DNA of 64,000 nucleotides, from positions 1 to 64,000 of the forward strand of contig WALV01000032.1 of the NCBI GenBank assembly GCA_015522645.1, read 5' to 3'. This document shows positions 4,161 through 16,167 of this stretch, piece after piece. This stretch comes from Candidatus Tiamatella sp. GTDB lineage: Archaea; Thermoproteota; Thermoprotei_A; Sulfolobales; Acidilobaceae. Below the pieces are notes generated by a model. The model saw only the letters and a list, made by a program, of their open reading frames with translations, made no database searches and was not told the DNA's origin. How positions within the stretch are numbered: position 1 is the first letter of the stretch; each line of letters starts with the position of its first letter. A program made the translations under genes and the position numbers.

Positions 4161-5039
4161 CTACCATGAGACTAGCATAACGCCGAGGATGGCTACTATT
4201 ACAGAGGCAACGTGTCTAACTCCGGGCTTCTCCCTTAACTCGGAGGATAACAGTCCTGAAAATACTAATGTATGAATAGGAGACAACATTATTAACACCG
4301 AGGCTCTCGCAACACTACACACGGAGAATGCTGTATACCTTAATAGTTGGGCTAACGCGACTATTACCGCAGCCATGACCATATAATGGAACACTCTTCC
4401 ATGGCTTGTAACTTCCGATAAGGCGTTTTTAGCTAGGAACGGGGAGAGTATAAGGAGGGCTGTAGTATATGAAATGGCTGCTCCTATTATTGGGTTTCCT
4501 CCACTATAGCCGGCTCCAAATCTTACTAGTAAAGAGGTAAAAGAGAACACTAGGGCAGATGTGACCCCAGCTACTATGCCTATTGAGGACTTACCGCCGT
4601 GAAGTGGTCTACCACTTGGCTCATTATATACAAGGTAGACTGCTAGCATTACAAGGAATACTCCTAGGACTTGTAGTGCCGTGAGAGCTTCTCCTAGCAG
4701 AATCCATGCAAATAAAGAGGCGAAAACTACCGTAGGACTCGTTACTATTGAGGCTGTTGTTGCACCAGCATATGATATTGACAGGTAGAATAGGTACCTA
4801 CCAATTACGAAGTTTAGGATTCCGGCTAGAATAAAAGATAGTAATGCATCAACTTGTGGCATACCTCTCCATACTAATAAAGATGCTGCCCAGAGTATGG
4901 GTGTACCTACTAGGAGGCTTGTCAATAGGTTTTGAGAAGGTTTCAATTTTATAGAAGCCGCCCTGACCAAAGTATCGCTTAACCCAAAGAATAGCCCCGC
5001 CAAGAAAGCCGTTGTGTACCCTAGTTCACTACAATCCAC
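4161..5039 (-). CDS. EamA/DMT-family transporter
   Basis: 292 residues with ~10 transmembrane helices arranged as two EamA repeats: the first half ends with GVFLVMLAVYLVYNE and the second with VIVAILGVMLVSW, the characteristic last helix of each EamA unit. Members export amino acids, nucleobases or other metabolites; the substrate here is unknown. It lies 36 bases downstream of the ketopantoate reductase gene and is likely cotranscribed with it, which makes a metabolite of pantothenate or branched-chain amino acid metabolism a possible but unproven cargo. Confidence 0.82.
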   Translation of the reverse strand: MDCSELGYTTAFLAGLFFGLSDTLVRAASIKLKPSQNLLTSLLVGTPILWAASLLVWRGMPQVDALLSFILAGILNFVIGRYLFYLSISYAGATTASIVTSPTVVFASLFAWILLGEALTALQVLGVFLVMLAVYLVYNEPSGRPLHGGKSSIGIVAGVTSALVFSFTSLLVRFGAGYSGGNPIIGAAISYTTALLILSPFLAKNALSEVTSHGRVFHYMVMAAVIVALAQLLRYTAFSVCSVARASVLIMLSPIHTLVFSGLLSSELREKPGVRHVASVIVAILGVMLVSW

Positions 5040-6097: not shown

Positions 6098-6760
6098 ATG
6101 AATATTGATCCGAGGCTCGTAAAATGGGGGAGTAAGCGTAGAAATATTGAAGTTTTAGTAAAGGCGATTCGGGAGATTGTTAATTGCTGTTACTCTGAAC
6201 GAGTCAGATGCACCGATCCCCCGGTAGCTTCAACAGGGTTCCTATACAGTTTGGGGTTCCATCAGTACCTTATAAGAAGCTTTTGGTCGGAACTGCCCCT
6301 AGGAACATATGATATTCCCCTGTATAAATGGCTTAATACTAGCTTCTCACTGGAGGCAGAACACATAATTTCCAGTATAAACGAGATAGAGTGTGGAAAT
6401 CTAATTGTTCCAATAGACGAGCTTGACGCCAGGATGAAAGCTACTATTTTCACTCCAAGATCTCACTTGCTTTACATTAGGGTAAAAGGAGAAATTGGAG
6501 GGAATGTCATTAGACTGAATACTATTAGGCTTGCTAAGCTTATAGAAACCTATGAGCCAGGCTGGGTTAACTCTTTGCTGGACAGTATATCAAAAGCATA
6601 CGACGATTCGAGCCTACTCGTTGATTTAGAGCATAAGGTCTTGGAAGAGATCGGGAAAAGGGAATTAGTTTTGTCGTTTATTCTCCCCCGGATACCGAGA
6701 AACATAGATGATTTATATAAGCTTGTACCTGTTGTCAGACTTTTATTAAGGTCTGAGTGA
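6098..6760 (+). CDS. Conserved-looking hypothetical protein
   Basis: 220 residues, soluble, no signal peptide or membrane segment. Contains a Cys-rich N-terminal patch (NCCYSERVRC, ~48-57) and a helical C-terminus ending LVPVVRLLLRSE. The ATG has a GGTTGGAG-like ribosome site upstream. I do not recognise a family. It stands alone between divergent panE and the radical SAM block, with its own AT-rich upstream region. Confidence 0.6.
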   Translation: MNIDPRLVKWGSKRRNIEVLVKAIREIVNCCYSERVRCTDPPVASTGFLYSLGFHQYLIRSFWSELPLGTYDIPLYKWLNTSFSLEAEHIISSINEIECGNLIVPIDELDARMKATIFTPRSHLLYIRVKGEIGGNVIRLNTIRLAKLIETYEPGWVNSLLDSISKAYDDSSLLVDLEHKVLEEIGKRELVLSFILPRIPRNIDDLYKLVPVVRLLLRSE

Positions 6761-6864: not shown

Positions 6865-8385
6865 GTGGGTAACAATCATAATGAACCAAATGAGAAAAAA
6901 GGCGACATAGGGAGACTATTAACGGGAATAAGATTAATCTTCAATAATCCTTTAACGAGAAGTTATCTCCGTACTGGGACAAAGAGGGTTGAATGCTGCG
7001 AAGAGGATAAATGTAGAGAGCAGACATTGTTATTCCACGCGCTTTCATCCTTCACAGGCTCCAATGTAACCGGGTGCCCGATAACAGCAAGGTTCCTAAG
7101 CTGGATGATTAAATCGACAATAAAAATCGGGGTAAAAGTTCTCAAAGGGGATATTGAGAGCGCGAAGGAGGCATTGAGAGATCCCGCGGTGAGAAGAGGT
7201 GTTTCATTAGTAGTCGAAGGCTTAGCAAGATATGGGGTTACAGTTCCCCAGAAAATGCCTGCACCATTCCTCATAGTATGGAACTTCACTAATATGTGCA
7301 ACCTCAAATGCATACACTGTTATCAAAGAGCCGACAAGCCCTTACCAGATGAACTCACATTAGAAGAGAAGCTCGAGGCTGTAAGGCAGATCGACAAGGC
7401 TGGTGTTGCAGCAGTAGCATTAAGTGGTGGTGAACCAACCATACATCCCCACTTCTATAGAATAGTGAAAGAACTAGCTGACAGAGACATATACGTGTCT
7501 GTAGCCACTAATGGAACCATGTTTGCGAAAATAGAGAATCTAGAGAAAGCAGTTAAAGCTGGTATAAGATACGTTGAGGTCAGCGTTGACAGTGCAAACC
7601 CCGAAGTACATGATAGGTTCCGCGGAGTTCCGGGAGCGTGGGAGAAGGCAACGCAGGCTCTTAGAAACGCCGTTAAGCTAGGAGTGAATAATGGAATGGC
7701 AACTACTGTAACCAAGTTCAACATAAACGAAATAGAGGAAATCCTTGATCTAGCGGAGGAGATAGGTGTTAATAGGGTAATCTTCTTCAACTTCGTCCCA
7801 ACGGGAAGAGGAGCCGATTACGCATGGATGGATCTTACTCCAGAGGAAAGAGAGGAGTTCCTAAAAACTATATATAAAGAAATGAAAAAGAGGAAGCTGG
7901 AAATAGAATCCACCGCACCACAGTACGCTAGAGTTGTCCTAGAAATGAGTCAAGGCGAAGAAGTCGCCCCTACTCATTTCTACGTTGGAAGTAATAAAAT
8001 AGTTAATGCGCTAGCCGAGTTCGTGGGAGGTTGCGGTGCAGGAAGAATATACGCAGCCCTACAACCAAACGGTGATGTCGCGCCATGCGTCTTTCTACCC
8101 ATAAAAACAGGGAATATAAGAGAGAAACCGTTTAGAGAAATCTGGGACACGTCAGAAGTATTCCAGACACTTAGAAATAGGGAACTCCTAAAAGGATATT
8201 GTGGTGAATGCCCATACAAATATGTCTGCGGAGGCTGTAGAGCAAGGGCTTACGCTTATTTCCAAGACATAACTGCACCCGACCCCGGGTGTATATTGAA
8301 TAAGAAAGAATGGGAGAAAATACCTAAACCTCACGTCACCATAAGGCAGCCCACTAAGCCTAGGGGGTCTGGTGGAGGGAAATGA
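6865..8385 (+). CDS. Radical SAM/SPASM protein
   Basis: 506 residues from a GTG start. The radical SAM cluster motif is CNLKCIHC (C145, C149, C152), followed by SGGEP (187-191) for SAM binding. The C-terminus holds a SPASM domain with many Cys residues (CGAGR, GDVAPC, CGECPYKYVCGGC, PDPGC) that bind auxiliary iron-sulfur clusters. A ~130-residue N-terminal extension carries four further cysteines (C44, C45, C50, C71). SPASM enzymes usually modify peptides or tether cofactors; the substrate is unknown. The stop overlaps the start of the next radical SAM gene by four bases (ATGA), so the two are translationally coupled. Confidence 0.88.
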   Translation: MGNNHNEPNEKKGDIGRLLTGIRLIFNNPLTRSYLRTGTKRVECCEEDKCREQTLLFHALSSFTGSNVTGCPITARFLSWMIKSTIKIGVKVLKGDIESAKEALRDPAVRRGVSLVVEGLARYGVTVPQKMPAPFLIVWNFTNMCNLKCIHCYQRADKPLPDELTLEEKLEAVRQIDKAGVAAVALSGGEPTIHPHFYRIVKELADRDIYVSVATNGTMFAKIENLEKAVKAGIRYVEVSVDSANPEVHDRFRGVPGAWEKATQALRNAVKLGVNNGMATTVTKFNINEIEEILDLAEEIGVNRVIFFNFVPTGRGADYAWMDLTPEEREEFLKTIYKEMKKRKLEIESTAPQYARVVLEMSQGEEVAPTHFYVGSNKIVNALAEFVGGCGAGRIYAALQPNGDVAPCVFLPIKTGNIREKPFREIWDTSEVFQTLRNRELLKGYCGECPYKYVCGGCRARAYAYFQDITAPDPGCILNKKEWEKIPKPHVTIRQPTKPRGSGGGK

Positions 8386-9854
8386 ACATAGTTTTAGTCT
8401 CATCCCCCGGGCTTAGAAGATTAGAGATTTACCAAAGTATAGGTGTTAGAGCCCCGCCACTGGGACTAGCTTACATTGCCTCTGTGCTAGAAGACGAGGG
8501 GCATAAGGTAAGTATCATTGACGCTCCTACACTAGAGCTTTCGGTGAAAGAAACAGCTAGGGAAATCCTATCCCGGCATCCAGACGTAGTCGGCATATCC
8601 GCCGTCACCCCTACTGTAAAAGGCGGTTATGCTGTTGCTAACATAGTTAAAGAAAATGATCCCAGTGTTAGAATCATAATTGGAGGCCCACATGTTTCAT
8701 TTATGTATGAGGAAGCATTAGTTAATGGAGCTGACTATGTTGTTATCGGGGAAGGCGAGATAACGGCAAAAGAGTTACTAGAGTTCTTAGAAAGAGAGAG
8801 CGGTGAGCCTAGAAATGTTAAGGGGTTAGCTTATATTGACAAGGAAGGACAGGTTAGGATTACTCAACCTAGACCACTAGTTAAGGATATTGACAAGCTT
8901 CCTCCTCCTGCAAGGCACCTGCTCCCAATGGACAAATACACATTATTTGACAAGCCCATCAAAATAATACACGTAATGGCCAGCCGTGGTTGCCCTTACG
9001 GTTGTATTTATTGTACAACAAGCTATTTTTGGGGGAGACGCTATAGAGTGAGAAGTGTAGAAAAAGTTGTAGATGAAATAGAGGAAGCTATGGATAAATA
9101 TAAAAGTAATATCATCGTTTTCTCCGATGACGAGTTAACACTTATCCGGAAATGGGTTTATGAACTAGTCGACGAAATCAAGGATAGAGGGTTAGATATA
9201 ACATTCACATGTGGTTCAAGGGTTAGCAGTATTAACCCTGAAATGCTCAGGAAACTTGAGAGTGTAGGCTGCTCCACAATTTATTATGGAGTTGAGTCCT
9301 ATAAAGACGAGGATATAGAGAAGATAGGTAAAAGAATAACAATAAAACAGGTTGTTAATGCCATAAAATGGACCAGGGAAACAGGTATCGAGAGTGCTGG
9401 TAGCTTTATACTCGGATTTCCCTGGCAAACAATTGATGATATAAAGAACACAGTTAAATTTGCCAAGAAACTTGGAGTAGATTACGCACAATTCACTGTC
9501 GCCACACCTTATCCAGGAACTCCATTGTATTACCAGGCAAGGAAAGATGACTTGATTGAGATAATGGATTGGGATTACTATACAACAATATACCCGGTGA
9601 TGAGAGGATACCACTTCAGAAGAGAAGCTCTCTTCAAACTACTGAGCTGGGCTTACAGAAGCTTCTATTTAAGACCAACTTTCATACTCCACCAGATAAG
9701 GAAGGGGCGTTTCAAGACTATGTGGGATATAGCTTCCAGAGCCATCAAAGGGTACGTGAAAGGGAAGATATCACAGGCAGAGGAAGAAGAGACGTATGAG
9801 TTAAAGAGACCTGTGAAAAAGATTAGGGTTGCCCCTCGAGAGAGAGAAGTATGA
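8382..9854 (+). CDS. B12-binding-domain radical SAM protein
   Basis: 490 residues. Residues 1-~140 form a cobalamin-binding Rossmann domain (PPLGLAYIASVLEDEGH, GGPHVS 101-106, GEGE 123-126); the radical SAM motif is RGCPYGCIYC (C204, C208, C211), with a GSFILGFP segment typical of this class. Class B (B12) radical SAM enzymes methylate unactivated carbons or form rings; the archaeal GDGT ring synthases GrsA/GrsB are, to my recollection, of this architecture, but I cannot assign this protein to them. It overlaps the preceding SPASM gene by four bases, so both probably act on the same product. Confidence 0.88.
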   Translation: MNIVLVSSPGLRRLEIYQSIGVRAPPLGLAYIASVLEDEGHKVSIIDAPTLELSVKETAREILSRHPDVVGISAVTPTVKGGYAVANIVKENDPSVRIIIGGPHVSFMYEEALVNGADYVVIGEGEITAKELLEFLERESGEPRNVKGLAYIDKEGQVRITQPRPLVKDIDKLPPPARHLLPMDKYTLFDKPIKIIHVMASRGCPYGCIYCTTSYFWGRRYRVRSVEKVVDEIEEAMDKYKSNIIVFSDDELTLIRKWVYELVDEIKDRGLDITFTCGSRVSSINPEMLRKLESVGCSTIYYGVESYKDEDIEKIGKRITIKQVVNAIKWTRETGIESAGSFILGFPWQTIDDIKNTVKFAKKLGVDYAQFTVATPYPGTPLYYQARKDDLIEIMDWDYYTTIYPVMRGYHFRREALFKLLSWAYRSFYLRPTFILHQIRKGRFKTMWDIASRAIKGYVKGKISQAEEEETYELKRPVKKIRVAPREREV

Positions 9855-9906: not shown

Positions 9907-10179
9907 CTAGCCTCCGGCGCTTGGAGGAAATATGTCTACTTCATCTCCATCACTCAGCTCTTCATCTAGCTTTCTACATAGGAAAATATTCCTGCCGTTA
10001 ACTAGAATTATTGGATCATAGCCTTTTACCATGTATCTCTCAAGTTCGTTCTTTACTTCAGGCAGATAAATGAGTAAGCAATTGATGCTTCTGCAATTTT
10101 CATCCAATTCTATTACTCTTTCCTTCCACCCTAGCCGTATTCGTAACCCTGCATATATCCTGACTCTCACAGTGGGCAT
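9907..10179 (-). CDS. MoaD/ThiS-family sulfur carrier protein
   Basis: 90 residues from ATG 10179, which has GAGGGA nine bases upstream; an in-frame codon at 10206 has no such site and is rejected. Beta-grasp fold ending in the diagnostic SAGG, where the terminal glycine is thiocarboxylated for sulfur transfer to pterin precursors. The segment DELSDGDEVDIFPP is typical of MoaD. It overlaps the end of the radical SAM maturase by 13 bases and lies next to a tungstopterin enzyme, so a role in tungsten-pterin cofactor synthesis is likely. Confidence 0.88.
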   Translation of the reverse strand: MPTVRVRIYAGLRIRLGWKERVIELDENCRSINCLLIYLPEVKNELERYMVKGYDPIILVNGRNIFLCRKLDEELSDGDEVDIFPPSAGG

Positions 10180-11264
10180 CGTACCATATCCCTCGCGTAT
10201 GGGCAACTAGCACAACTCGGCTGATTCCCCCAGCAATCCATATCATTGGAGAGAGTAAGAGTACAATAGTCTCGTAGCGGGCAATCAGGGCAACTTGGGT
10301 AATACATGAAATCCAGGTTAAACTTATACTGCATGTACTCCTCAGAGTTCCAGACCTCTATCAAGCTTTCCTCCTTTAGATCCCCGAGAATAACGGCATT
10401 TATCGTCCTAGTTACCCTGTAAAACGTATTGGCCCACCCGTGAGCCATGTAAATGCAGGGTGCAACCTTACCATCCCACCTAACGAACAGAGCGTCTCTC
10501 GAGGCGAAAGGGCATTCTCTCTCGGTAGACAGGCCTAACTGTGGTAAACTTATGAGTATATTGTGAATCATGCTCAATTTAGCTAGGATACCGGATATTT
10601 CCGCTATTTTCCTTTTACACGAATCATCCATATAACAGGCCAACGATTTCTCCTGCCCTGGAGTTAATGGGAGAATATTGGATACGATGAATCGTGTTGC
10701 TTTCAGTTTTCCAGCGAGCTCTATGGTCTTTACCAGATTATCTACATTGAGTCTAGTTAGTGTAAACTGGATAATTATCTCGGGTTTCTTGACCATTTTC
10801 TCCCTTCTAAACTTGTTTATTTCCTCTAGTGCACTTAGGAGTCTAGAGAGATCCCCGCCTTTCCTGATGAGGGAATAAAGGTCGCTTTCACTGCTATCCA
10901 TGCTAACATAGAGCTCGTCGACTGACTCTTCCACCCAGCTCGTATTTTCTTTTAAAAAATATCCGTTGGTGTTTAATAGAACCTTTAATCCTAGATCCTT
11001 AGCTTTTCTAACGAAGTCTTTAATTTTAGGATGAAGCAACGGTTCACCCCAACCTGAGAAGATTATCTTCTCTACTCCCGCATGGTATGCTTCTTCCACG
11101 ATTTTATTATACAATTCCGGTTCCATGAATCCTTCAGGTTCCCTCATTAGGTTCCTGAAGCAGTAGATACACTTGTAATTGCACTTACTCGAAACTTCAA
11201 TCATGAGCTCCCGCGGATGACTATCATCTGAGGGTGTGATCTGCCATTTTTTTACCTTAAACAC
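10167..11264 (-). CDS. Radical SAM maturase of tungsten oxidoreductase type
   Basis: 365 residues. CNYKCIYC (C28, C32, C35) is the radical SAM cluster motif; the C-terminus has a SPASM-like set of cysteines (GKVAPC, YYPSCPDCPLRDYC, DCWGNQPSCASCPYARDMVRCPL). The combination with an adjacent MoaD-like gene and a divergent aldehyde ferredoxin oxidoreductase matches the tungsten-cofactor oxidoreductase radical SAM maturase family (described as TIGR04317, from memory). It is thought to help mature the W-bis-pterin enzyme; the exact reaction is not established. Confidence 0.85.
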   Translation of the reverse strand: MFKVKKWQITPSDDSHPRELMIEVSSKCNYKCIYCFRNLMREPEGFMEPELYNKIVEEAYHAGVEKIIFSGWGEPLLHPKIKDFVRKAKDLGLKVLLNTNGYFLKENTSWVEESVDELYVSMDSSESDLYSLIRKGGDLSRLLSALEEINKFRREKMVKKPEIIIQFTLTRLNVDNLVKTIELAGKLKATRFIVSNILPLTPGQEKSLACYMDDSCKRKIAEISGILAKLSMIHNILISLPQLGLSTERECPFASRDALFVRWDGKVAPCIYMAHGWANTFYRVTRTINAVILGDLKEESLIEVWNSEEYMQYKFNLDFMYYPSCPDCPLRDYCTLTLSNDMDCWGNQPSCASCPYARDMVRCPL

Positions 11265-11371
11265 TTTGAAAACACCAGTTGAGGATTGATTATAACTATT
11301 TATATTGTCGTCGCCAATATATGAAACAAGAATGAATTCGTTCTTATATCTTTTGGAGGAGTTGAAGCAAG
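11265..11371. promoter_or_regulatory. Divergent promoter region, W-maturase / AOR
   Basis: The 107-base space separates two divergent start codons and must hold both promoters. It contains the AT-rich run ATTATAACTATTTATATTG at about 11287-11305, a plausible TATA element. The AOR side carries the strong ribosome binding site GGAGGA at 11355-11360. Shared control of the enzyme and its maturase is inferred from the arrangement. Confidence 0.45.
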
Positions 11372-13261
11372 TTGCCTGGAGGATATATGGGTAAATTTCT
11401 TAGAGTGAATCTATGGAGTGGGAAACTCCGAGAGGAGACCATGCCCGACCACATTCTGAGAAAGTGGATCGGTGGTAGAGGTCTTGGAGTATATTTGGCA
11501 TTAAAGGAAATAGACCCTAAAGCCGACCCGTTGGGCCCTCGGAACAAGGTATTCATACTGACTGGTCCTGCGACGGGTGTGGCTGGAGTAACTGAATCCG
11601 GTAGATGGTGTAGTGTAACGAAGGCCCCTCTGACAAATACTGTTCATGACAGTCAGAGTGGAGGGAAATTCGGTCCTGAACTAAAATTCGCTGGATACGA
11701 TGGTGTGTTCATAGAAGATATGTCCGAGAAACCTGTTTACCTATGGATACATGATGGGAAAGCAGAGCTGAAAGACGCTAGTCATTTATGGGGACTGGAT
11801 GTTCACTCGACTACTGACAAAATCCAAGAGGAACTGGCGAGCGAGGTAGGAGAAAAGGAGGCGGGTAAAATAAAAGTAGCAGCCATAGGTCCGGCAGGCG
11901 AGAGGCTAGTCAAATTTGCCGCTATAATGAATGATAAAAACAGGGCAGCTGGGAGAGGAGGCCATGGTGCTGTACTGGGAAGTAAAAAACTTAAAGCCAT
12001 TGCAGTTCTGGGACACAAGGTCCCAAAGGTAGGTAAAATAGATCTCTTCAGGGAGGTAGTAAAAGAGACTGTGAAGAAGCATAAGGAGAACCCTGTTACA
12101 AGCGAGGGTTTACCTCAGCTTGGAACGGCTATACTGGTTAATATAATAAATCAGAACGGTCTGTTCCCGACTAGGAACTTTCAGTCAGGTTACTTCGAGG
12201 AAGCAGAGAAAATAAGTGGGGAAACACTAGCTGAAACATACCTGGATAAAAAGAAGAGCATTGAAGAAGCATGCTGGGGCTGTGCAATTGCATGCGCTAG
12301 ATATTCACGCGTAGGTAAGTCACCTTTCAGCGGTGAAGGGGGAGGACCGGAATATGAAACCATATGGGCTTTCGGTGCGCAAACCGGTAATGATAATTTT
12401 GAATCAATTATAAAGGCAAACTTCCTTGCAAATGAATTAGGCTTAGATACTATTTCAACAGGTAACACTATAGGAGCACTTTTCGAGCTTATAGAGAAAG
12501 GTAAATTCCCTAAGGAAAAGCTGAGAGGATTAAAAGCAGAGTGGGGTACTCCTGAAGCCGTAGTAGAGTTAACATGGAGAATAGCCTTTAGGAGCGGAGT
12601 AGGTGACGAGCTTGCAGAAGGATCATACAGGCTGGCGAGCAAGTATGGGGCACCAGAACTATCAATGAGCGTGAGAGGACAAGAATTACCTGCTTATGAC
12701 CCTAGAGGGGCACAAGGCCATGCTTTAGCATATGCAACTAGTAACAGAGGAGGCTGCCACCTGAGAGCTTACATGATAAGTCCTGAAGTTCTAGGAGTAC
12801 CAATGCTTGTGGATAGATTTGAAACTAAAGGCAAACCAGCGCTCGTAAAAGAATTCCAGGACGTATTCGGCGTAATTGATTCCATGGTTCTATGTAAGTT
12901 CAGTAGCTTCGCTCTATGGGATGAGGATTATGCTAAGATACTATCTGCAGTAACAGGCTGGGATATCAATAAGGAAGAAGTCCATGTAATAGGCGAGAGA
13001 ATATACAATGCCGAGAGAGCGTTCAATGCACTAAGCTTTGGCGATGGAGTGGAATACGATACTCTACCGCCGAGGTTCCTGAAGGAACCAATGCCTGAGG
13101 GCGCCAGTAAGGGTCAGGTAGTCAAGCTAGATGAGATGCTGCCGGAATACTATAAGCTTAGAGGCTGGATAAATGGAAGGCCTACTAGAGCCAAGCTGGA
13201 GGAACTAGGCCTTAAATGGATTGCTGATAGACTAGAGGAGGAAGGCCTTCTCCCTGGATGA
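11372..13261 (+). CDS. aor: Aldehyde ferredoxin oxidoreductase (tungsten)
   Basis: 629 residues. The N-terminus (GYMGKFLRVNL, GGRGLGVYL) and the pterin-contacting AGRGGHGAVLGSKKLKAI (193-210) are diagnostic of the AOR family. The [4Fe-4S] ligands are C301, C304 and C308 (CWGCAIAC) with C508 (MVLC), spaced as in Pyrococcus furiosus AOR. The enzyme oxidises aldehydes to acids with reduction of ferredoxin, in cytoplasmic peptide or sugar fermentation. The TTG start is chosen because GGAGGA lies 11 bases upstream and MPGGYMGK matches family N-termini. Substrate class (AOR, FOR, GAPOR, WOR) cannot be fixed here. Confidence 0.93.
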   Translation: MPGGYMGKFLRVNLWSGKLREETMPDHILRKWIGGRGLGVYLALKEIDPKADPLGPRNKVFILTGPATGVAGVTESGRWCSVTKAPLTNTVHDSQSGGKFGPELKFAGYDGVFIEDMSEKPVYLWIHDGKAELKDASHLWGLDVHSTTDKIQEELASEVGEKEAGKIKVAAIGPAGERLVKFAAIMNDKNRAAGRGGHGAVLGSKKLKAIAVLGHKVPKVGKIDLFREVVKETVKKHKENPVTSEGLPQLGTAILVNIINQNGLFPTRNFQSGYFEEAEKISGETLAETYLDKKKSIEEACWGCAIACARYSRVGKSPFSGEGGGPEYETIWAFGAQTGNDNFESIIKANFLANELGLDTISTGNTIGALFELIEKGKFPKEKLRGLKAEWGTPEAVVELTWRIAFRSGVGDELAEGSYRLASKYGAPELSMSVRGQELPAYDPRGAQGHALAYATSNRGGCHLRAYMISPEVLGVPMLVDRFETKGKPALVKEFQDVFGVIDSMVLCKFSSFALWDEDYAKILSAVTGWDINKEEVHVIGERIYNAERAFNALSFGDGVEYDTLPPRFLKEPMPEGASKGQVVKLDEMLPEYYKLRGWINGRPTRAKLEELGLKWIADRLEEEGLLPG

Positions 13262-13270
13262 ATACTTATT

Positions 13271-15277
13271 TCATTTCCCTATTAATCCTTTCCTATAGGC
13301 CTTCATCAACAACTCCAGTTTTTCTTGGTCCAACTTAGTAGACCCTAATTCGAGCCTCCTTCTCTTAATATCACGGAGCACTGAGTAGTCCAGGAATACT
13401 ATATAGTCTATTTTCAAAACATCTCCTTCTCCCACCATTATTACGGGCAAACCTTTATTTTCAGCTAAACTAGTAAATGAGGGTGCTCCGGTTACAACTA
13501 AGCCTTCTATTCCCCTTGATATAAGTAAGTCGATCCCCCTTGGATCATATGGGTCATTTTCTTTTACAACAATAATGGAATCCTCTGGAATCATACTACC
13601 AATGGTTTTTTCAAGGCTTTTAATCGAATCAACCGTTAATCTCTCAACTAGGAATCCTGCAATCTTGTCTCTGCTAATCAGGCCACTTATAGCACGAAGT
13701 AAAAGCGTATTTTCTTCTTCGGCGTTTGCCAGTAACGACTCTAGGGTATTCAGCCTTCCCTCCAAGCTATGAATCCTATTCCTATATTTTTCTACCTGAA
13801 TCTCATGCTCGACTTCCTTCTTTAGTTCCCGAATAGCATTCCTCTGAGTTTTTTTAAGGTACTCAAGTTCTTCATTCAGTTTCCTTACTTCACTCTCCAA
13901 TTTCCTCCGTGTATATAATAGGTAGTTGACACGCTCTCTGTATTCGGCAAGAGCAATATTGCATGATTCTTCCTGTATTTTTCTTTGACCATCAACAACA
14001 CTATTATCTCTTCTATTAATTGGTATGAGATCAGTGCCTATCTTTCTCTCGATCTCCTCCTCGACAGCCTCTGCTATCGTTTTACCCTTGACTATAGATT
14101 CCTTTATCTTATCTATATCAAGGTTTAATTTTCTTTTTGATACGTAGAGTTCGATTTGCTTGAACTTCTCGCTCAGCTCTTTATAAGCCTTGTATGCTGC
14201 AGCGAGAGCATCTCTTTGATGGGTATCAGCGTAATCGGGATAGACTTGGTTGGCCAGCGATCTTTTTTCAGTTGCCGAGAGGCTGGCTGGTGGAACATAT
14301 AGCTGGGTGTCAAACATTGATGATAGTTTTCTAGCGGTCTCAGGAGGAGGATTAACGTCGGTGGCGACAACGATAGGTTTACCTATATCTGATAATATGG
14401 ACGCTATTTTCGAACGATCCAAGTTTTTAGATGAATACAGATATAATAGGTTTCCCGAGATATCTAGGACTGCTAACCCTGTATATATTCCTGGGTCAAT
14501 GCCTACAATCACTGGTCTCTGGGAGAGAGTTATATCTCGGTCTCCTATGATGAGTTTCTGGCTATACAGCGGTGTTATCCTTATCCTGTAATCCCGACCA
14601 TCATAGGGCTTTATTAGACCGTATATCTTCTCCCTACCTGCATATACGGTAAATATAGCCGATTCCAGCCCTCCCTTACTTCTCCTATAGGATTCATCGT
14701 AATCTAAGCCTGCTTTATCCAGTGTTTCCTTTATTTTCTGAGCTACCTGGCTAATGATGCTGTTCAGCCTCCTCTGGTACCTTGCTTGGCTCCATCCGCC
14801 TTTAGATCCCCCTCTCGACTTTGATACTGTTATACGTGTTTTTTCCTCCCTTAACCGGACTTGGCCTCCTATGCCTTTTTCAGCCAAGAGTGCTGCTATG
14901 TAGGCTGTTTTACCCGGAGATAGCTTACCGGAATGCATTAAAACACCGTATTTTTCAGCTACTGTTTTTATAGGTATGAACTTACCGTTGTCATAGGTTA
15001 CTTGTATAAGTTTTGCTTCTGGTGGGAGTAAAGACAGTATCCTGGCTATTCCATGTTCTGTTGGCGCGAGCTCATATACATTGTCTATTCCTATAGAAGC
15101 AACGTTATACTCCCACGCAAGCCGTATAATCCTAGGTAGAGTTGCTTCCTCATTCTTATATAATACCCGTTTGCTAGAGTCAATGATTATGATCGAGTAT
15201 CTCGGTTTGTAAGCTGAGGAAGGACTGCTTCCGGGATTTATATCTATACCCATATAACTAGGCTTTTTTTCGAGCAT
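13271..15277 (-). CDS. DUF460 RNase H-like protein with release-factor-like GGWSQ loop
   Basis: 668 residues. Two RNase H-like units are visible: MGIDINPGSSPSS (9-21) at the N-terminus and VGIDPGIYTGLAVLD (258-272), as in archaeal COG2433/DUF460 proteins. Between them, KSRGGSKGGWSQARYQRR (153-170) followed by a long helix closely resembles the catalytic loop of Vms1-like release factors (VLRF1). A coiled coil spans about 440-520 (LRKLNEELEYLKKTQRN region), followed by a C-terminal alpha/beta domain. The start codon shares one base with the RIO2 stop (TGATG), so the two are coupled. Function is unproven; RNA or peptidyl-tRNA cleavage on ribosomes is inference. Confidence 0.8.
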   Translation of the reverse strand: MLEKKPSYMGIDINPGSSPSSAYKPRYSIIIIDSSKRVLYKNEEATLPRIIRLAWEYNVASIGIDNVYELAPTEHGIARILSLLPPEAKLIQVTYDNGKFIPIKTVAEKYGVLMHSGKLSPGKTAYIAALLAEKGIGGQVRLREEKTRITVSKSRGGSKGGWSQARYQRRLNSIISQVAQKIKETLDKAGLDYDESYRRSKGGLESAIFTVYAGREKIYGLIKPYDGRDYRIRITPLYSQKLIIGDRDITLSQRPVIVGIDPGIYTGLAVLDISGNLLYLYSSKNLDRSKIASILSDIGKPIVVATDVNPPPETARKLSSMFDTQLYVPPASLSATEKRSLANQVYPDYADTHQRDALAAAYKAYKELSEKFKQIELYVSKRKLNLDIDKIKESIVKGKTIAEAVEEEIERKIGTDLIPINRRDNSVVDGQRKIQEESCNIALAEYRERVNYLLYTRRKLESEVRKLNEELEYLKKTQRNAIRELKKEVEHEIQVEKYRNRIHSLEGRLNTLESLLANAEEENTLLLRAISGLISRDKIAGFLVERLTVDSIKSLEKTIGSMIPEDSIIVVKENDPYDPRGIDLLISRGIEGLVVTGAPSFTSLAENKGLPVIMVGEGDVLKIDYIVFLDYSVLRDIKRRRLELGSTKLDQEKLELLMKAYRKGLIGK

Positions 15278-16167
15278 CAGATCCCTCCCTTTATTTCCTC
15301 TAGGATCCTCTCCGGATCCACTTCAATTTTGAATTTCTTGTTGAAGAATCTTATTATGTAATACACGTCTCTTCTCAGGAGCTCATCTGCTATTGGGTCT
15401 TCCTTGTAGACGTACTGTGGCCAGTCAATTATGAATGGTTCACCTTCCGTTGAGATAAGTATATTATATTCACTAAGGTCTCCATGGACTATCCCTGCTT
15501 TAATATAGGCGATATGTATTGTGCTAACTATATCGGCTAGAATCTTCACAGGGTTATCTAGACCGTTACTGGGAATAGTATATAGCTCTACGCCTTCTAT
15601 ATATTCTTGCACCACCGCATGCCTGTTGTAATCTATTGGTTTAGGAACCAGTGCTCCAAACTTGTATAGCGCGTCAAGAGCCTTGAATTCTCTCTCACCT
15701 ATAAGTTTAGCCTTTAGTATCCATTGCTTTCTCGTGGATTCAGCCATGTATATCCTTGTTTTTCTCACATTCTTGAATGACCTGACTCCTTCCCTATGAA
15801 ATTTTAGGACAAGCCTTATTCCAGTAGGAGACAGTGCATCATAGACCTCACTTTCCTTTCCAACGCCTATCTTAGGACCCAACTCCGATACAGTACCCCG
15901 AGCTACTAGTGCCCTTAAAGCTAGGAGATCCAGCGCTTGGAAAGTAAGAGTATACCCCATAAGCTGGTGCTTTCCTTTCTTAATGAGCTTCAGTTCAACA
16001 AGTCTCTCAAGGGCCCTCCTGAAGCTTCCGGGTGGTAGCTTGGACCTTCTTTCAACCAGTTCGATTGGCGGGTACTCGTATTTCGAGAGAAGAGATTCTA
16101 TTGCTCTTAGAATTCTAAACATGTGATTATCCGTTTTATTGTAAAGCTCAGCTAACTGTGAAACCAT
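15277..16167 (-). CDS. rio2: RIO2-type serine/threonine kinase
   Basis: 296 residues. An N-terminal winged helix (1-~90) precedes a RIO kinase domain: nucleotide loop GVGKESEVY (101-109), Lys122 in LVLKFHREG, catalytic VHGDLSEYNILI (HGDLSEYN 228-235) and metal-binding IDWPQ (247-251). The winged helix and IDWPQ identify RIO2 rather than RIO1. RIO2 acts as an ATPase in late small-subunit maturation. It is the first gene of a two-gene minus-strand operon with the DUF460 protein. Confidence 0.95.
   Translation of the reverse strand: MVSQLAELYNKTDNHMFRILRAIESLLSKYEYPPIELVERRSKLPPGSFRRALERLVELKLIKKGKHQLMGYTLTFQALDLLALRALVARGTVSELGPKIGVGKESEVYDALSPTGIRLVLKFHREGVRSFKNVRKTRIYMAESTRKQWILKAKLIGEREFKALDALYKFGALVPKPIDYNRHAVVQEYIEGVELYTIPSNGLDNPVKILADIVSTIHIAYIKAGIVHGDLSEYNILISTEGEPFIIDWPQYVYKEDPIADELLRRDVYYIIRFFNKKFKIEVDPERILEEIKGGI

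Follow-up and report, generated by a model that had tools for sequence, protein, structure and literature searches.

The window, a stretch of 64,000 nucleotides from Candidatus Tiamatella sp. (contig WALV01000032.1, positions 1 to 64,000), comes from an anaerobic heat-loving archaeon and carries two overlapping genes for radical SAM enzymes. The two genes, their overlap and the small gene just upstream of them, here named c5, are:

6098..6760, + strand: c5, 220 aa, function not assigned, with conserved C31, C38 and a DPP motif; the gene just upstream of the pair

6865..8385, + strand: SPASM radical SAM gene, 506 aa, GTG start, Pfam PF04055 and PF13186; Gms (GMGT synthase) homologue

8382..8385, + strand: ATGA start/stop overlap of both radical SAM genes, read from the sequence

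8382..9854, + strand: B12-binding radical SAM gene, 490 aa, Pfam PF02310 and PF04055; probable GMGT/GDGT methylase

Both open reading frames were found where an earlier note on this DNA had placed them, with the four-base overlap that it described: the ATGA is common to both, the ATG of the B12 gene beginning at 8382 and the TGA of the SPASM gene ending at 8385. The Pfam searches agree with its assignment of a SPASM domain to one gene and a cobalamin domain to the other. Radical_SAM and SPASM score above their cut-offs in the first protein, B12-binding (PF02310, 103.9 bits) and Radical_SAM (PF04055, 99 bits) in the second. It is also correct that neither a peptide precursor nor a transporter directly adjoins the pair; an EamA transporter gene (4161-5039) lies three genes upstream on the opposite strand. 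On the other side, positions 9907-13261 hold a complete tungsten-enzyme unit consisting of an aldehyde ferredoxin oxidoreductase (AOR), its dedicated radical SAM maturase and a MoaD-like gene. A 668-aa DUF460-domain protein is encoded at 13271-15277, where it adjoins the gene of a RIO2-type kinase (15277-16167).

By homology, the SPASM protein is a member of the Gms (GMGT synthase) family, with a predicted activity of this type. Gms combines the SPASM radical SAM type with six N-terminal helices that form a domain of their own; it is a relative of AhbC/AhbD but distinct from them, and is restricted to obligate anaerobes (PMC11186832). The enzyme of M. okinawensis bridges the two chains of GDGT-0 alone in vitro (Li et al. 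2024, PMC11186832). The window protein shares with Gms the SPASM radical SAM type, the six-helix N-terminal domain, the seven SPASM cysteines and a distribution restricted to anaerobes. In its AlphaFold2 model (mean pLDDT 81), six N-terminal helices (14-26, 29-37, 55-63, 73-92, 97-104 and 107-123) and a small beta hairpin precede the radical SAM barrel and the SPASM region, which matches the position of the six-helix domain in Gms. The structures nearest to the model are PqqE and SuiB.

The radical SAM cluster of the protein is assigned to C145, C149 and C152, and seven cysteines of the SPASM domain are invariant (C390, C408, C446, C449, C455, C458 and C476), so that the hallmark of Gms, a CX3CX2C motif together with a SPASM domain carrying two auxiliary clusters, is present. 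The spacing of C370 and C438 of M. okinawensis Gms, judged from published residue numbers, matches the family, whereas C372 of that enzyme has no counterpart among the SPASM family homologues that we read. The earlier note had further described an extra N-terminus with four cysteines. C44, C45, C50 and C71 are indeed present, but they do not form a conserved four-cysteine domain: of 28 close relatives, 75% retain C44, 14% C45 and 14% C50, and only C71 is near-invariant (at least 95%). A four-cysteine metal site was rejected for the clade of the window protein. Because more distant members of the SPASM family have a CxxC...CxxC pattern in this region, we regard the N-terminal cysteines of the window protein as a degenerate remnant.

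The genomes used for comparison are those that we take to be I. aggregans, P. horikoshii, P. yayanosii, T. kodakarensis and T. guaymasensis. The one taken as I. aggregans encodes exactly one SPASM family member, which shares 58% identity with the window protein, and the one taken as T. guaymasensis likewise encodes one (48.6% identity, E 1.2e-149), so that the identity to homologues in GMGT makers amounts to 49-58%. Ignisphaera aggregans is a GMGT maker with a Gms homologue according to Li et al. (PMC11186832), and Gms of T. guaymasensis is AJC70771.1 (PMC11868695). Compared with the T. guaymasensis member, the window protein falls within the homology thresholds set by Li et al. (identity > 30%, E < 1e-50, > 420 aa; PMC11186832), whose own query was METOK_RS04425. 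In our tree, the single SPASM family member of the genome taken as P. horikoshii groups with the window protein with 100% support. Both tree and alignment place the window protein in the Thermoproteota/Thermococcales-i subfamily and the T. guaymasensis protein in another one, at 45-49% identity. The genome to which the window belongs also encodes a tetraether synthase, Tes (contig C36, 4336-5808; NF045702, 732 bits against a cut-off of 450), which would supply the substrate of a Gms-type enzyme and supports the predicted membership. Tes, which joins the lipid chains of archaea through C(sp3)-C(sp3) bonds, is of the radical SAM type like the SPASM protein, but the latter reaches 58.3 bits with NF045702. 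The comparison with Tes proposed in the earlier note thus turned out negative, and an identity with Tes was rejected.

The counterpart of the B12 gene was found at the place where a candidate for a GMGT methylase is expected, next to gms in T. guaymasensis. In the genome taken as this species, the gene following gms encodes a B12 radical SAM homologue with the same domains and 41% identity over 446 aa (E 7.6e-116). Gene order and the four-base overlap are also the same, the SPASM stop ending at 10134 and the B12 start (MRI) lying at 10131. According to its title, a PNAS study by Garcia et al. (2024; cited in PMC13003381) concerns the biosynthesis and modification of GMGT by two archaeal proteins that modify GDGT, and a sentence of the citing paper refers to it for methylated derivatives in hyperthermophiles (PMC13003381). 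Methylated GMGTs also occur in Methanothermobacter (PMC10134847). Judging from this title and the one citing sentence, the B12 protein is probably a GMGT/GDGT methylase. The second of the two proteins is reportedly a GMGT methylase; we take it to correspond to the B12 gene of the window, and it is probably the B12 neighbour of gms in T. guaymasensis.

The search for both families covered 60 relatives at first and 299 Thermoproteota genomes afterwards, with ortholog-level thresholds that we set at about 620 bits and 650 bits; two genomes in which the SPASM gene is split over contig ends were also counted as SPASM-positive. The B12 gene is present in 29 Thermoproteota genomes, 27 of which also have the SPASM gene (2/29 are without it). 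The SPASM gene is present in 57 sampled genomes, of which 30 are without an ortholog-level B12 gene. The Fisher value of the co-occurrence, 2e-20, ignores shared ancestry and is indicative only. The two genes are paired beyond chance: in 21 of the 27 sampled Thermoproteota genomes having both, they lie side by side, slightly overlapping or separated by a small gap, and in either order. The SPASM gene comes first in the genus of the window and in Caldivirga-like and Vulcanisaeta-like genomes, the B12 gene in most others. That they are neighbours in either order speaks for a common pathway. Frequent separation of the two genes had been named earlier as a finding that would refute the proposal; separation does occur, namely in the 30 SPASM-positive genomes without the B12 gene. 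The dependence is one-sided, the B12 gene rarely occurring without the SPASM gene, which suggests that the SPASM enzyme acts first and that the B12 enzyme uses its product, in agreement with the earlier proposal of two enzymes acting in sequence on one substrate. Some Thermoproteota families show an expansion, with at least five genes per genome that are related to the B12 radical SAM gene.

The association extends to the Thermococcales, where the SPASM family is present in all 12 genomes having the B12 family (12/12). In several of them, about 5 to 16 kb separate the two genes. The block around the SPASM gene is conserved in Thermococcus and Pyrococcus and comprises a TrmB-like regulator, SLAC1 and TauE-like transporters, a ferredoxin and SufB/SufC-like genes, and a unit of UspA, an SBF transporter and the B12 gene is located near this block. 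The genes between SPASM and B12 in Thermococcus loci (SBF, SLAC1, TrmB-like HTH) gave no consistent functional clue.

The distribution of the SPASM family can be compared with published lipid compositions. GMGTs amount to 28.7% in P. horikoshii and 3.4% in T. guaymasensis (PMC7137397), and T. kodakarensis and P. yayanosii are without GMGT (PMC7356043). The same holds for P. abyssi, T. cleftensis, T. nautili, T. onnurineus, T. litoralis, T. sibiricus and T. paralvinellae (PMC7137397), and in T. gammatolerans, Thermococcus AM4 and T. barophilus MP GMGT was not detected (PMC7137397). The SPASM family occurs in P. horikoshii, I. aggregans and T. guaymasensis, all of them GMGT makers, and is absent, with no match at E 1e-30, from the genomes taken as T. 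kodakarensis and P. yayanosii. No full-length SPASM family member was found in the seven species from P. abyssi to T. paralvinellae. T. gammatolerans, AM4 and T. barophilus MP, however, encode a homologue of the subfamily of the window protein and are without the B12 gene, and these GMGT-free strains are a point against the Gms reading.

These three strains could also be explained by another division of labour within the same lipid class. The SPASM enzyme of this subfamily would then make little GMGT on its own, and the B12 enzyme would help to form the bridge, a ring or an isomer without methylating. P. horikoshii, which has both genes, contains its 28.7% GMGT in line with this explanation, and methylation is not part of every B12 radical SAM reaction, an example being BchE, the best NCBIfam match of the B12 protein. 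Yet Gms of M. okinawensis makes GMGT alone in vitro, and I. aggregans is a GMGT maker although the genome taken as this species is without an ortholog-level B12 gene. Moreover, the GMGT level swings between near-identical genomes (39% in P. furiosus and 0.4% in P. woesei). We therefore consider this division of labour unlikely.

That the pair modifies a tetrapyrrole, as its nearest curated families AhbD/NirJ (SPASM) and BchE (B12) would suggest, is highly improbable. The best NCBIfam scores are indeed those for AhbD (266 bits) and BchE (234 bits), but they are far below the curated cut-offs of 500 and 481.35 bits, and identity with either family was rejected. The heme-pathway SPASM enzymes AhbD/NirJ2 are the curated families nearest to the radical SAM/SPASM core; they differ from the window protein in being without the N-terminal helical domain, which is also missing in AhbC/D. 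A separate pair of short AhbC/AhbD-like proteins, 31-32% identical, is encoded elsewhere in the genome (contig C66), and Gms itself was found to be distinct from AhbC/AhbD by Li et al. (PMC11186832). With BchE/HpnJ, the B12 protein shares the order of B12-binding and radical SAM domains, whereas its scores of 234 and 198 bits compare with cut-offs of 481 and 578 bits. A role of the pair in maturing the neighbouring AOR deserves hardly any credence: the AOR, maturase and MoaD-like genes lie beside the pair here, and AOR genes occur within about 10-20 kb of it in Staphylothermus-like and some Thermococcus loci, but most pair loci have no AOR nearby, the proximity in about three lineages was judged weak, and the AOR has a dedicated maturase of its own in the window (TIGR04317, 392 bits against a cut-off of 380). 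A peptide-modification system was judged unlikely because no precursor gene recurs beside the pair across loci.

The third gene of the locus, c5, gave no Pfam or NCBIfam match in the profile searches. In 13 compared loci, it is conserved close to one or both of the SPASM and B12 genes, and these include loci where just one of the two is present. Among the 299 genomes, 31 encode c5; the SPASM gene is present in 30 of these and the B12 gene in the remaining one. The co-occurrence of c5 and SPASM genes persists where c5 sits elsewhere on the chromosome, and the co-occurrence P values ignore shared ancestry. The structural model of c5 is confident (pLDDT 89.9) and found no match in the PDB or a viral fold library at E 0.001. 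Being a conserved neighbour, c5 may be an undescribed third component of the system of the pair. For the more specific proposal, that it represents a third, so far undescribed protein in the biosynthesis or modification of GMGT by Thermoproteota and has a fold missing from the PDB, we see an even chance. It is conceivable, for example, as a lipid-presenting, electron-delivering or regulatory partner of both radical SAM enzymes. In Ignisphaera-like genomes, c5 is found beside a conserved 520-aa gene resembling carbohydrate phosphorylases and glycosyltransferases.

Taken together, the pair very likely is a gms-type lipid-modification module in which a SPASM step is followed by a B12 step. The direct basis of this reading is the gene structure, the homology, the co-occurrence, the presence of Tes and the Gms-like architecture of the model. 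The reactions that we infer for the host organism, including the methylase role of the B12 enzyme and any role of c5, would proceed as follows. Tes, encoded elsewhere in the genome, would link two archaeol tails to give GDGT. The SPASM enzyme would generate a 5'-deoxyadenosyl radical and take a hydrogen from one biphytanyl chain, and a C-C bond from the activated chain to the other one would yield GMGT (H-GDGT). An auxiliary 4Fe-4S cluster probably serves to hold the substrate radical, by analogy to what has been proposed for Gms (PMC11186832). The B12 radical SAM enzyme would then methylate the hydrocarbon core of the SPASM product, and c5 probably assists or regulates one step of the pathway.

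The earlier suggestion of a membrane lipid as likely substrate is supported by the SPASM protein being a Gms homologue. The pair had also been put forward as the best candidate in the window for an undescribed system. This claim cannot be upheld because both proteins are homologous to the known gms-type module, the SPASM protein belonging to the Gms family and the B12 protein being homologous to the product of the gene overlapping gms of T. guaymasensis. Orthology of both proteins to characterised enzymes, the outcome named as speaking against novelty, is largely what we found. The module is of an already known kind, as chain-bridging and modifying lipid enzymes were reported in 2024; new is the association with c5, which together with the distribution is what remains noteworthy.

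GMGTs serve as environmental lipid markers, and it is therefore relevant which lineages carry the genes. By our findings, gms-type modules with a B12 partner are spread among Desulfurococcales-like and Thermoproteales-like archaea. Either gene may come first in them, and the B12 gene hardly ever occurs without the SPASM gene. In addition, they point to c5 as a small conserved protein that is directly testable as a missing partner.
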